From Halorussus vallis (GTDB taxonomy: Archaea > Halobacteriota > Halobacteria > Halobacteriales > Haladaptataceae), in assembly GCF_024138165.1 (NCBI RefSeq), contig NZ_CP100000.1, positions 2,728,001-2,792,000 on the forward strand: a stretch of 64,000 nt of DNA, given 5' to 3'. Shown piece by piece: positions 1,719 to 61,517 of this stretch (position 1 is the stretch's first letter; the number at the start of each line of letters is the position of its first letter). Made by a program: the position numbers and the translations under genes. The notes beneath the pieces were generated by a model. That model ran no database searches and had not been told where the DNA came from. It worked only from the letters and a program-made list of their open reading frames with translations.

Positions 1719-4211
1719 CTACCGGAGTATCTTCTCGCGGTCCGGGTCGTACAGCGGTTCCTCCTCGACGGTCGCCGGGTAGCGCTCGTTCTCGTACCGT
1801 ATCTCGACCGACCGCCCCGGTTCGGCGTACTCGGGCGGGAGGTACCCGTACGCGATGCCGGCGTCGACGGTGTAGCCGTAGTCGGCGCGCGCGACGTACC
1901 CCAGCACGTCGTCGCCGTCGACGACCGGGTGGCCCGAGTCGACGACCGCCCCGGGTTCGTCGAGCGTCATGCAGGACAGCTTCCGGTCGAGACCCTCCTC
2001 GCGGGTGCGTTCGAGCGCCGCCTTGCCGACGAACTCGGTGTCCATATCGACCGCGAACCCGATGCCGGCCTCGTAGGGGTCGTACTCCGGCGTGATGTCG
2101 GTCCCCCACAGTCGGAAGCCCTTCTCCATGCTCATCGAGTTGAGCGCGGCGTCCCCCATCGCGACCGCGCCGTGGTCCTGGCCCGCCTCCCAGACGAGGT
2201 CCCACAGTTTCGCACCGTACTCCATCGGGGCGTACAGTTCCCAGCCGAGTTCCCCGACGTACGAAACCCGCAGCATCGTCACCGGCACGCTCCCGACGTA
2301 CGTCTCCCGGCACGAGAAGAACGGGAAGGCGTCGTGGGAGATGTCGGCCTCGACGAGTCCGGCGAGCGTCTTCCGAGCCTCCGGACCCCACACGCCGAGG
2401 CCGCAGGTGCCCGACGTCCGGTCGGTCACGGTCACCGAGTCGGGGGCGCGCTCGCGAACCCACCGGCCCTGCTCGGTGCCGGAACTCCCGCCGCCGGTCA
2501 GCAGCAGGAACCTGTCGTCGGCGAGTCGGGAGACGGTCAGGTCGGCGAGGATGCCGCCCGCCTCGTTCAGCATCGTCGCGTACCGGACGCGGCCGGGCGC
2601 GACGTCGACGTCGTTCGAGAGCAACCGCTGGAGGAAGTCGGCGGCGTCGTCGCCGGTCACCTCGATGCAGGTGAACGACGAGAGGTCGTACAGTCCGACC
2701 CGGTCGCGGACGGCACGATGTTCGGCGCCGTGGGCCTTCGACCAGTTCCGGCCCGGCCAGCCGTCCCGGTCCGGCACGCCGTACTCCGCCGCGAGCGGTT
2801 CGTTGGCCTCGTACCACTGGGCGGCCTCCCAGCCGTCGGCGTCGTAGAACTCCGCGCCGAGTTCCTCCTGTCGCGGGTAGTAGGGACTCCGCCGGAGGCC
2901 GCGCTCGCTTCGGGGCTGTTCGCGCGGGTGAATCAGCTGGTACACCTCCTGGTACTGCTGGGCGCCCCGGTCGCGGGCGTACCGCCGCGACCCCGAGTGG
3001 GGCTGGAACCGGTCGACGTGCGCGCCGGTCACGCACACGCGCTCGCCGTCGAGTCGCGGGACGCCGTTCTCCATCCACTCGGCGAGGATGTTGCCCGCGC
3101 CGCCGGACTGGGTGACCCAGACCGCCAGGCCCCACCACAGGCCGTCGACGTCCTCGCTCTCGCCGAAGATGGGCATCCCGTCGGGGGTGAACGAGAACAT
3201 CCCGTTGATGCGGTACTCGAACTCGGAGTCGGCGAGCGCGGGGACGAGTTCGGTCGCGGCGTCGTACGCCGAGCGGTCGATGTCGGGGTGGGTCGGCTCG
3301 AAGAAGTGTTCTTCGGTGAACTCGCGGATGGACGGCTGGTCGGGCGCGTCCTCGGGCGAGAGGATGTCCTCGGGGTCGACCAGTAGCGGTTCGTGGTCGT
3401 AGGAGCCGATACCGTAGCGCTCGCCGTGCTGACGGAAGTACAGCGAGTAGTCCTGGTGGCGCAGGATGGGCTGGTCCAGTTCGCGCGCCGCGCCCCGGAG
3501 TTCGTCGAGTTCGTCGGAGACGAGGTACTGGTGGGCGCACGGGACGAGCGGCACGTCGACGCCGACCATGTCGCCGAACAGCGGCCCCCAGATGTTCGCC
3601 GCCACCAGCACCTCGTCGGCCTCGATGCTCCCCCGGTCGGTGACGACGGTGCGTATCCCCTCGTCGTCGGTTTCGAGGTCCGTGACCGTCGTCTCGCCGA
3701 AGAACCGGACGCCCCGGTCGCGGGCCGCTTCGGCCATCGTGGCCGAGACGTCGACGGCGTCGGCCTTCCCGTCCGTGGGCACGTAGTAGCCGCCGTGGAT
3801 GGCGTCCTCGTTTATCTGGGGAATCTCGGCTTTCACCTCGGCGGGCGAGAGCAGGCGGCCACCCTCTATGCCGTAGGCCATCCCCCGCTCGCGCTTGCGC
3901 TTCAGGAAGTCCCACCGGTCTTCGGTGTAGGCCACTTCGACGCCGCCGGCCTGGCGGAAGCCGTCGAGGTCCGAGTAGAGCCGTCGGGTGTACTCGGCCA
4001 TCCGGGTCATCAGCTTTCCCCCGGCGGTCTGGAACACCAGGCCCGGCGCGTGGGAGGTCGACCCGCCGGTTTCGAACAGCGGTCCCTGGTCGACGACGAC
4101 GACGTCCTCGCGCCCGAGTTCGCTCAGGTGGTACGCGGTGCTGCACCCGACGCACCCCGCACCGACGATGACCGTCCCGGCCGCGTCCGGAAGTTTGCCA
4201 CTTGTTCCCAT
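1719..4211 (-). CDS. Dimethylglycine/sarcosine dehydrogenase, FAD plus folate-binding (GcvT-like) domains
   Basis: An 830-residue two-part flavoenzyme. The N-terminal half is a DAO-type FAD domain: GAGCVG at residues 17-22 and GGSTSHAPGL, whose His54 matches the histidine that binds FAD covalently in dimethylglycine and sarcosine dehydrogenases. The C-terminal ~380 residues are a tetrahydrofolate-binding aminomethyltransferase-like domain (for example FLQRLLSNDVDVAPGR and VSYVGELGWELY). The length matches the mitochondrial enzymes. The family removes a methyl group from dimethylglycine or sarcosine and passes the one-carbon unit to folate. It sits between the sarcosine-oxidase-like gene and the ammonia-lyase on the same strand. 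Whether it prefers dimethylglycine or sarcosine cannot be read from sequence, but the companion oxidase argues for dimethylglycine. Confidence 0.88.
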   Translation of the reverse strand: MGTSGKLPDAAGTVIVGAGCVGCSTAYHLSELGREDVVVVDQGPLFETGGSTSHAPGLVFQTAGGKLMTRMAEYTRRLYSDLDGFRQAGGVEVAYTEDRWDFLKRKRERGMAYGIEGGRLLSPAEVKAEIPQINEDAIHGGYYVPTDGKADAVDVSATMAEAARDRGVRFFGETTVTDLETDDEGIRTVVTDRGSIEADEVLVAANIWGPLFGDMVGVDVPLVPCAHQYLVSDELDELRGAARELDQPILRHQDYSLYFRQHGERYGIGSYDHEPLLVDPEDILSPEDAPDQPSIREFTEEHFFEPTHPDIDRSAYDAATELVPALADSEFEYRINGMFSFTPDGMPIFGESEDVDGLWWGLAVWVTQSGGAGNILAEWMENGVPRLDGERVCVTGAHVDRFQPHSGSRRYARDRGAQQYQEVYQLIHPREQPRSERGLRRSPYYPRQEELGAEFYDADGWEAAQWYEANEPLAAEYGVPDRDGWPGRNWSKAHGAEHRAVRDRVGLYDLSSFTCIEVTGDDAADFLQRLLSNDVDVAPGRVRYATMLNEAGGILADLTVSRLADDRFLLLTGGGSSGTEQGRWVRERAPDSVTVTDRTSGTCGLGVWGPEARKTLAGLVEADISHDAFPFFSCRETYVGSVPVTMLRVSYVGELGWELYAPMEYGAKLWDLVWEAGQDHGAVAMGDAALNSMSMEKGFRLWGTDITPEYDPYEAGIGFAVDMDTEFVGKAALERTREEGLDRKLSCMTLDEPGAVVDSGHPVVDGDDVLGYVARADYGYTVDAGIAYGYLPPEYAEPGRSVEIRYENERYPATVEEEPLYDPDREKILR

Positions 4212-11207: not shown

Positions 11208-11517
11208 ACGACACAACTGAGTAACTGCAAGCCACACGCCTCCCCAGCCGACTCCCTCGTTCGCTACCGCTCACTCGGTCGTCCCTCGCGCAGGTTGGTC
11301 GCGGCACGAGGCCGCGACCCCACGCGCCGTGCCGGTTGTGGAGTGCGCGATATCGTCCTTTGGACACGGCGCGCGCTGGCGCGACCTCGCGTCGCGCCTT
11401 CATGCGCGAGGGATGAGCGAACGAGCGCAGCGAGTGAGCGAATCGGCTGGGGAGGCGTGTGGTCTGCGGTCGCGGTGGCTGTGCGGTACTCATTTGGATC
11501 GTGTGAGTTGCGGTCTG
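11208..11517. repeat. Intergenic inverted-repeat element, family B copy 1
   Basis: It fills most of the 574 bases between two rightward genes (11081-11654). The inner arms cacgcctccccagccga (left, from 11235) and the reverse complement tcggctggggaggcgtg (right, from 11443) are perfect inverted repeats around a GC-rich core. The right end carries gcggtactcat...gtgtgagttgcgg, matching the ends of copies at 46424-46860 and 51068-51299. The left end is shortened. No transposase is present. Confidence 0.7.
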
Positions 11518-12173: not shown

Positions 12174-12300
12174 TGACTTCGAAAGCCCCCGGCCGCTACA
12201 CTCCTGCGACTCGCTGCGGTCCTCGGCACTCACTTCGTTCGTGCCTGCGGTCCTTGCTTCGCCGGGGTTCGTGTAGCGGCCGGCCCCTTTCAGTCCCACC
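12174..12300. repeat. Intergenic structured element, family C copy 1
   Basis: It occupies the 341-base gap 12090-12430. The outer pair GAAAG (12181-12185) / CTTTC (12287-12291) is followed by unpaired CCC on both sides. Then comes a perfect 13-bp stem beginning CCGGCCGCTACAC (12189-12201), whose partner is GTGTAGCGGCCGG (12271-12283). The other copies keep GAAAG-CCC and CCC-CTTTC but have different complementary stems. Conserved downstream text is AGTCCCACCC. Confidence 0.78.
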
Positions 12301-12430
12301 CGGGAGGTTTGCGTTGCCTCCGTAACGGTGGCTTGCCGAGCAACCGAAACGGCGGTCTGCGTCGCTTCGTTCGCTCCTCTCACCGGTCGTCGGCCGGAGT
12401 CGTTATCATCCTCTGCGTCGCAAAGCAGGC

Positions 12431-34582: not shown

Positions 34583-34715
34583 GACCGCTTCGAAAGCCCC
34601 CGCCCGCTCGCGGTCGCTCACCGACATATCCGGCTCGCGCCTATCGGCGCTCGCCAGATAGGGGTCGCTGAGGCGACCATGTAAACGCGAGCGAGCGGCC
34701 CCTTTCAGTCCCACC
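34583..34715. repeat. Intergenic structured element, family C copy 2
   Basis: It lies between the dihydroorotase start and the stop of the lipoate-ligase-like gene. GAAAG-CCC (34592-34599) faces CCC-CTTTC (up to 34706). The enclosed stem is CGCCCGCTCGCG / CGCGAGCGAGCG, with one mismatch, and differs from the stems in copies 1 and 3. A further inner pairing (ggtcgctca / tgaggcgacc) extends it. The downstream AGTCCCACCC is the same as in copy 1. Confidence 0.75.
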
Positions 34716-34808
34716 CTTCGGGAAGTTCACCGAGCGTTTCCGTGGTTCGTGTCACCGGGCGCTACTGCTGGTGGTGGCGTCGAGCGTCGCGATGAAAACG
34801 GTCCCGTC

Positions 34809-42620: not shown

Positions 42621-43052
42621 CGGCAGAGGGAGCCGAGTTCCCGCGGCGCGCGAGGCGACTCGCGCACACGACGCCGGCGACGCCGGCGTCCACGTGAGGA
42701 AAGTCCCCCCACCGTTCGGGCGGGCGACCGGGCGCAAGCCCGGAGCGGGAGACCGCTGGCTCTGGAACAGAAACGAGACCGCTCTTCCCGACCGATGAGG
42801 TGCGCGAACCCCGACCGAACGAAGGCGAGAGCCGAGTAAAGGAACGGGGAGCTAACCCACGGAGGGCGCGTGGCGACAACGTCGCCACGTTACGCCGAGA
42901 CGGCGCCAGCCGTCGAGCGTAGACGGAAGAGGACGGATGGAACGGCGAATCCTCGCCGGTGCAAGTCCGCGTCGTACTGGTAGCCCGAACGCAGACGCGG
43001 ACGCTCAGCCGAATACTCGGACGAACAGAAGGGGGCTTACTCCCCTCAGCCG
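42621..43052 (+). ncRNA. rnpB: RNase P RNA, archaeal type A
   Basis: The ribozyme of tRNA 5' processing. Universal segments are present in order: GAGGAAAGTCC near 42698 (CR-I), ACAGAAACGAGACC near 42766, and GGAACGGGGAGCTAACCC near 42841. GGTGCAAGTCCG follows near 42958, then GAACAGAAGGGGGCTTAC at 43023-43040 (CR-V). P1 is formed by CGGCAGAGGG at 42621-42630 and CCCTCAGCCG at 43043-43052, which sets both ends; a length of about 432 nt is typical. The ends are predicted from helix P1 and may be off by a few bases. Confidence 0.93.
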
Positions 43053-46423: not shown

Positions 46424-46860
46424 GCTTGCACGATGCAAGTGAGTGACCGCAGCCACGCCCTCCCCAGCCGATTCCCTCACTCGCGCCTGCGGCGCTCGTT
46501 CGGTCATCCACCGGAGGACTAACCGCGTCCTCCGAGCCTGCGCTCGCTTCACTCGCGCAGACCTCGCGCGCATGGGCGCGACCCCAAACCGCGAGGTCGC
46601 GCCAGCGCGCGCCGTGACCAAAAGACGGGATTTCGAAGCCTCGTTTCCGGTGTGGCGCGCGCAGTCGGCTCCTCGTGAGCCGACAAACCGAGCGAGGGAC
46701 GACTGAGCGTCTCGGAGAGACGCGAAGGAGTCGGTTGGGGAGGCGTGTGGTCCGCGGTTGCGGTGCGGTTGCGGTCACGCGAGCGAAGCGAGTGTGACCT
46801 CGTCGGACCAGCGGTCCGACGGCGGTGCGGTACTCATGTGAATCGTGCGAGTGGCGGTCG
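46424..46860. repeat. Intergenic inverted-repeat element, family B copy 2
   Basis: The largest copy, filling most of 46257-46986. The left arm ccctccccagccgattcc (46457 on) is inverted as ggagtcggttggggagg (46727-46743). The right terminus gcggtactcatgtgaatcg (46828 on) matches the ends of copies 1 and 3. The core contains the same cgcgcgctggcg-type text (here inverted) as copy 1. No open frame encodes a transposase. Confidence 0.7.
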
Positions 46861-51067: not shown

Positions 51068-51299
51068 GCTACTCACACGATTCACATGAGTACCGCAACC
51101 GCACCGCGACTGCGCGCGCCACGGCGGCTGTGAAGATACGCGATACTGACCTTCGGCGTGGCGCGCGCTGGCGAGAGTTCATCTCACGCCAATTCGCGCG
51201 AGGGATGAGCGAGTGAGCGTCAGCGAACGAGCGAATCGGCTGGGGAGGCCTGTGGCCTGCGGTGGCGGCGCGGTAACTCATGTGAGTCGTGTAAGTAGC
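51068..51299. repeat. Miniature element with terminal inverted repeats, family B copy 3
   Basis: The best-defined copy: 232 bases bounded by gctactcacacgattcacat (51068 on) and its near-perfect reverse complement ending gtgtaagtagc (51270-51299). That gives about 29 bp of terminal inverted repeat with three differences. The core contains cgcgcgctggcg and the gaatcggctgggga arm common to other copies. No open frame inside supports a transposase, so it resembles a non-autonomous element. Confidence 0.78.
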
Positions 51300-57952: not shown

Positions 57953-58137
57953 CCGCCTCGAAAGCCCCCGGGCGCTCGTCGCGAATGATGAGAACTACAG
58001 TAGATAAAAGCACTTTGAAAGCCCCCGGTGGCTACGCTCCCGCGGCTCGCTGCGCGCTTCAGTCGCTCACTGCGCTCGCTCCTTCCAGTGCTTACTTCGC
58101 CGGGGTTCGCGTAGCCGCCGGCCCCTTTCATCCACTC
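57953..58137. repeat. Intergenic structured elements, family C copy 3 (a partial and a complete unit)
   Basis: A truncated left half (gaaag-ccc at 57960 on) precedes a complete unit. In the complete unit GAAAG-CCC starts at 58017 and CCC-CTTTC ends at 58129. The paired stem is CCGGTGGCTACGC / GCGTAGCCGCCGG, with one G-U wobble. The stem differs from copies 1 and 2 while the flanks are kept. The elements lie between divergent genes (57881-58541). Confidence 0.75.
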
Positions 58138-58144
58138 ACTTCCG

Positions 58145-58262
58145 GACCGCACCGCGACCGCCACACGCCTCCCCAACCGACTCCGTCGCGCCTCTTCGAG
58201 GCGCTCGGTCGTCCCTCGCACGGAGATGGCGTGAGATGAACTCACGCCAGCGCGCGCCACGC
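58145..58262. repeat. Family B element, half copy
   Basis: It contains the inner arm gaccgccacacgcctcccca (58156 on) and the core atgaactcacgccagcgcg, the reverse of the core in copy 3 at 51068-51299. The other half is missing. It directly follows the family C unit. Confidence 0.6.
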
Positions 58263-61444: not shown

Positions 61445-61517
61445 GGGCGGCTAGTTCAGCGGACAGAACGTTTGGTTCCGGACCAAAAGGTCATGGGTTC
61501 AAATCCCATGCCGCCCG
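61445..61517 (+). tRNA. tRNA-Arg, anticodon CCG
   Basis: A 73-nt cloverleaf: acceptor GGGCGGC/GCCGCCC with discriminator G, D-stem GTTC/GAAC, anticodon stem TTTGG/CCAAA around the loop TTCCGGA (anticodon CCG), and T-stem ATGGG/CCCAT with loop TTCAAAT. CCA is not encoded. The anticodon reads CGG codons. An A+T-rich island starts shortly after its 3' end. Confidence 0.96.

Follow-up and report, generated by a model that had tools for sequence, protein, structure and literature searches.

Three complete hairpins in one window

What kind of element forms the same intergenic hairpin several times within one stretch of haloarchaeal DNA, with a constant foot and a stem that differs at each site? The window analyzed here, i.e., the whole stretch of 64,000 nucleotides, is part of a 5.05-Mb Halorussus genome (G000) and contains, as a previous sequence-only reading proposed, three complete copies; all are on the plus strand, at positions 12181 to 12291, 34592 to 34706, and 58017 to 58129. 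The GAAAG/CTTTC closing helix, the internal loop of unpaired C runs, and the variable but complementary stem described in that reading are present in all of them. Copy 1 has a type II interior (CTACACTCCTGCGACTCGCTGCG...) and is adjoined at its foot by the conserved 3' tail AGTCCCACCC (12292 to 12301, +). The same tail follows copy 2 (34707 to 34716, +), the interior of which is type I (CTCGCGGTCGCT...ATATC...GATAG). Copy 3 is again type II and carries the variant ATCCACTC, so the 3' text thought to be common to the complete copies is shared by copies 1 and 2 and not by copy 3. A presumed half copy at 57953 proved to be the 5' arm of copy 3 repeated about 57 bp upstream of it (57953 to 57978, with GAAAGCCCCCGGGCGCTCG at 57960 to 57978, +). 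Such a repeat recurs at about the same distance across many sites of the family, and the view of it as an independent element was rejected.

The window contains GAAAGCCCC four times, where 0.37 occurrences are expected; none of 100 shuffles reached four. DNA folding z-scores for the plus and minus strands were -2.9/-3.1 for copy 1, -3.9/-6.1 for copy 2, and -2.5/-0.9 for copy 3. Copies 1 and 2 each lie between two co-directional genes, those around copy 2 being on the minus strand, while copy 3 has divergent genes on either side. The window also encodes an archaeal RNase P RNA (42622 to 43051, +) and a tRNA (61445 to 61517, +).

A dispersed family with fixed ends and interchangeable interiors

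The hairpin is real and is a member of a large, dispersed family of haloarchaeal DNA palindromes, about 90 to 125 bp long, intergenic, and scattered through salt-loving archaea. Its ends are near-invariant, GAAAGCCCC...GCCCCTTTC followed by the 3' tail AGTCCCACCC, which among 220 hairpins is conserved at 98% (A), 92% (T), 100/94/81% (C), and then 98/91/73% (C). The unpaired C run facing another C run is likewise near-invariant in 80 aligned copies. Two main interiors occur between these ends, type I (GGTCGCT...ATAT...) and type II (CTCGCTGCG...GTGCTT), besides short and composite ones, and the interiors are interchangeable between hairpin copies.

The exact pattern GAAAGCCCC-N-GGCCCCTTTC was found 63 times in G000, against none for the reversed pattern, and copy number ranged from 0 to 63 among 28 genomes of the host family. 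In an even draw of the phylum, the hairpin turned up in 19 of the 53 genomes belonging to the host's order and in none of the 242 from other orders; in a scan of GTDB species, 80 of 80 among the matches listed were Halobacteria. Within the sample searched, the family is thus confined to the order Halobacteriales. No match was found in Rfam or in phage records, and of three pattern matches in viral contigs none had matching arms on inspection. No description of the hairpin sequence was found in the literature searched (open-licence full text).

Several copies have additional sequence on their 3' side. In four from G000 (L002, L033, L035, and L046), an extra hairpin-rich segment, ACCGTCGGACC...GGTCCGACGAGCTCTCGTTCGCTCCGCTCACGAGA, lies in the 3' tail directly 3' of CTTTCAGTCC. 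Many Halorussus copies then have degenerate repeats of about 27 to 30 bp (CGGTGGTTCGTGTCACCGAGCGCTTC) in the 3' flank that fade with distance, as at window positions 34717 to 34770 in G000. Haladaptatus-like genomes repeatedly contain convergent hairpin pairs with a spacing of about 340 bp (L144, 925 to 1042 [+] and 1385 to 1501 [-]; also G025 and G026). A second dispersed motif, CTCCCCARCCGAYTC, has six occurrences in the window (expected, 0.05) and forms two inverted pairs 200 to 270 bp apart (11240 to 11254 [+] with 11440 to 11454 [-], and 46460 to 46474 [+] with 46728 to 46742 [-]). The other sites are at 51233 to 51247 (-) and at 58169 to 58183 (+), the latter a short distance downstream of copy 3. 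In L144 and L284, the motif sits between inverted hairpin pairs.

Stem pairing is kept by DNA rules

Covariation was analyzed in two alignments, one for type I and one for type II, each of 40 distinct hairpins drawn from many genera. Pairing was retained in 94.8% and 94.9% of the cells, respectively, and two-sided changes affected 22 of the 36 pairs in type I and 16 of the 24 in type II. The compensated change noted in the sequence-only reading was strongly borne out: 350 two-sided changes over both alignments (192 and 158 cells), matched by none of 500 shuffles. In slid-structure controls, pairing reached at most 50.5%; this control is biased towards the structures, because they were predicted from the same alignments, a bias of which the shuffle control is independent.

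The stems do not follow the pairing rules of RNA. G-U accounted for 1.4% and 1.2% of the pairs in type I and type II hairpins, compared to 7.45% in RNase P RNA, taken from the same 28 genomes and paired according to an automatically predicted structure. Among non-Watson-Crick cells, the G-U share was 20% and 18%, against 87% in RNase P RNA and 17% expected by chance if G-U is one mismatch among twelve. One-sided changes were likewise scarce relative to two-sided ones, 18:192 and 10:158 in the hairpins versus 71:128 in RNase P RNA. As G-U is no commoner than other mismatches, what is kept is DNA complementarity; stem pairing is maintained by Watson-Crick (DNA) rules only. Of the two options previously put forward, a functional fold or a DNA cruciform, the DNA option is hence likely, whereas a fold at the RNA level is unlikely given that G-U behaves like any mismatch here and not as in RNase P RNA. 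Neither G-U-tolerant covariation nor a curated RNA match, by which a structured RNA family would be recognized, was found.

DNA-rule pairing points to an element that functions as single-stranded DNA in folded form and probably also moves in that form. The near-invariant C run argues that this folded strand, rather than the duplex, is what is read, because an unpaired run is meaningful only in the folded strand.

Gene context

Copies with called neighbors were between divergent genes in 57 of 174 cases and between convergent genes in 21. In 120 of 174 copies, the gene on the GAAAG side read away from the hairpin, a more frequent arrangement than in background gaps (128 of 240; Fisher p 0.0016, with genes called heuristically). 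These orientations carry no terminator signature, in keeping with the earlier view that simple termination does not suffice.

Clustering of neighboring ORFs gave no recurrent family, leaving no candidate for a gene linked to the chromosomal copies. A Y1 transposase partner was also rejected: a hairpin was present within 1.5 kb at 0 of 30 IS200-type Y1 loci, copy number was unrelated to Y1 count (rho 0.09), and G001, which lacks a Y1 gene, has 52 copies. When 34 copies were checked by eye for strand domains along the chromosome, about 16 runs were counted against 18 expected; no replication polarity is therefore claimed.

Site turnover among relatives

Recent within-genome copies are 96 to 98% alike over 108 to 124 bp, which comprise the hairpin plus only a few bases, the likeness stopping 2 to 4 nt before GAAAG and 5 to 9 nt after CTTTC. 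The possibility of mobility, raised from the sequence, was followed in part by comparing orthologous sites in relatives, and presence, relics, type swaps, and absence were all observed. Flanked by a DUF5807 gene and a pfkB-type gene, the copy 1 site holds a type II hairpin in G000 and G013, a type I hairpin in G003, G011, and G012, and relics in G002, G006, and G014; among the genus genomes that could be judged, nothing recognizable was found in G004, G007, G010, and G017. The copy 2 site carries whole or partial hairpins in four genomes, G003, G012, G013, and G011 (the last with a large nested insert). In G016, the relic at this site has lost its stem, and several other genomes have no hairpin there, some of the intergenic regions having been extracted too short. 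Stem-less relics retain both ends. At another orthologous site, a hairpin with the odd end CCCCTTTATCC is found in G002, G014, and G017, with stems that differ and yet pair.

No target duplication and no clean empty-to-filled pair were found among the sites compared, and the G002/G017 site is readable as either gain or loss. Apical loops resemble each other more closely within a genome (0.63) than between genomes (0.56), a difference reached in none of 200 label shuffles. Concerted loops and type swaps could be explained by gene conversion between copies rather than by transposition, two processes that give the same picture in these data.

Hairpins upstream of plasmid RPA-like genes

A BLAST search with the hairpin against plasmids gave matches on Haloarcula, Halorussus, and Haladaptatus replicons. 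On the Haloarcula plasmids examined and on two Haladaptatus plasmids, the hairpin lies 396 to 992 bp upstream, on the same strand, of a gene for an OB-fold protein of 280 to 410 amino acids. Two of the three OB-fold members tested matched replication factor A (NCBIfam, E 6e-19), the Haloarcula member being the one without a match. Relatives of this RPA-like gene are present on 191 PLSDB plasmids, including pNRC100 of Halobacterium salinarum; an example of the gene is at 3607 to 4758 of L201. In the genomes of the host family, eight of nine RPA-like genes of one clade have the hairpin or a decayed form of it. A variant, GAAAGCCCTCGG...CTCGCCCTTTC, occupies positions of roughly -650 to -550 on plasmids of Halorussus, Haloferax, Halobaculum, and Haloprofundus, and shorter or split forms occur on Natronomonas and Halorubrum plasmids and on pNRC100; in two plasmids, no hairpin was found upstream of the RPA-like gene. 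VirD4/VirB4-type genes lie 2.5 to 9 kb from the RPA-like gene on several plasmids, in varying orientation, and none was within reach on a Haladaptatus plasmid.

Interpretation

The element is probably a small haloarchaeal DNA palindrome (about 90 to 125 bp), mobile but non-autonomous, that acts as single-stranded DNA or as a cruciform. Its working form would be a folded single strand or an extruded cruciform, the foot of which, i.e., the closing helix, the C-rich bubble, and the single-stranded tail, would be recognized by an enzyme acting in trans. The same putative enzyme may move, copy, or exchange the element, and sites that have lost the stem and kept both ends could act as sockets that receive a new copy.

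It is improbable that these are instead neutral palindromes, with little mobility and no function, the arms of which are kept in step by replication template switching and inter-arm conversion. Such a process does predict Watson-Crick-only covariation, loops that are concerted within a genome, and stem deletions. However, arm correction should erase the unpaired C-run loop, so the near-invariance of that loop in the aligned copies counts against it, and the conserved single-stranded 3' tail, the spread to tens of sites, and the confinement of recent copies to the hairpin would be left unexplained. A structured RNA, whether a small RNA, a riboregulator, or a terminator, would account for the strong covariation and for RNA alifold energies of -56 and -34 kcal/mol, but with G-U not tolerated above chance, no Rfam match, and gene orientations that do not fit a terminator, we regard it as very unlikely.

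The arrangement of hairpin and plasmid RPA-like gene resembles that of Frpo before the ssb gene of the F plasmid, where ssb lies behind the stem-loop promoter Frpo2 (PMC9849209). By this analogy, the hairpin might be a single-stranded promoter or initiation site (Frpo/ssi-like) which, on entering or displaced plasmid DNA, would recruit RNA polymerase or primase for the downstream RPA-like gene, the chromosomal copies being mobile or recruited derivatives. The pairing at the DNA level fits, as do the position of the hairpin 0.3 to 1 kb upstream, in the same orientation, on plasmids of six genera (Haloarcula, Haladaptatus, Halorussus, Haloferax, Halobaculum, and Haloprofundus) and the VirD4/VirB4-type genes near some of them. 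We nevertheless consider it unlikely: an archaeal TATA/BRE pair was not recognized in the stem by eye, the conjugation genes have no constant place with respect to the SSB gene (in Haloarcula they lie downstream in the opposite orientation, in Halobaculum upstream on the same strand), the majority of copies are on chromosomes and do not adjoin an RPA-like gene, and copy number is unrelated to how many RPA-like genes are present (rho -0.29, p 0.13). That a plasmid hairpin acting on single-stranded DNA during transfer or replication, as an archaeal counterpart of Frpo/ssi, gave rise to a module that became a chromosomal mobile element with exchangeable interiors and tens of copies is conceivable on the same analogy, but equally doubtful.

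Read as a mobile DNA palindrome, the family is most like small mobile repeats. SMR-A of Haloquadratum walsbyi (HqIRS42, 43, and 55) is about 110 bp long and has inverted ends, up to 54 copies, and no transposase, its mobilization being called enigmatic, and no target duplication is described (PMC3119063). By description, the hairpins are like SMR-A: they are haloarchaeal, span about 110 bp, have inverted sequences at their termini, exist in tens of copies, and are too short to encode a transposase. SMR-A inserts inside near-terminal palindromes of PATE and IS605-type elements (PMC3119063); no such insertion was noticed among the hairpins, and clustering of neighboring ORFs gave no recurrent transposase near the copies; Watson-Crick-only covariation, in turn, is not reported for SMR-A in the available part of the source. 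No repeat of the HqIRS42/43/55 kind was found on plasmid PL47. With REP/BIME sequences and their RAYT transposases, the family shares dispersed intergenic palindromes, a conserved unpaired foot tag, and variable complementary stems (PMC2817692, PMC3733652). REPs, however, measure 20 to 40 bp, have a GTAG or CGTC tag, and often contain G-T pairs (PMC3733652); the hairpins measure 90 to 125 bp, have the tag AGTCCCACCC, do not tolerate G-T, and have no RAYT-type gene alongside; none of the 30 Y1 loci carried the hairpin. Like IS200/IS605 ends and PATEs, the hairpin would be read single-stranded and shows no target duplication, but no Y1 gene or recurrent transposase stands beside the copies examined, and PATEs have palindromes near both ends (PMC3119063) where here one hairpin is the whole element. 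The likeness to Frpo/ssi lies in a DNA hairpin upstream of a plasmid gene for a single-stranded-DNA-binding protein, on some plasmids close to transfer genes (PMC9849209, PMC11541004); the hairpin differs in lacking sigma-type boxes, its host being archaeal, and in being dispersed on chromosomes as well.

G-U tolerance measured against an RNA control from the same genomes provides a test, based on sequence only, that separates hairpins selected as DNA from those selected as RNA. It is applied here to a family now defined by fixed ends, swappable interiors, site turnover, and restriction to the Halobacteriales in the sample searched. If the single-stranded form is confirmed, the missing recombinase would become a concrete target, and the hairpin beside plasmid RPA-like genes would offer a route to how archaeal plasmids handle single-stranded DNA.
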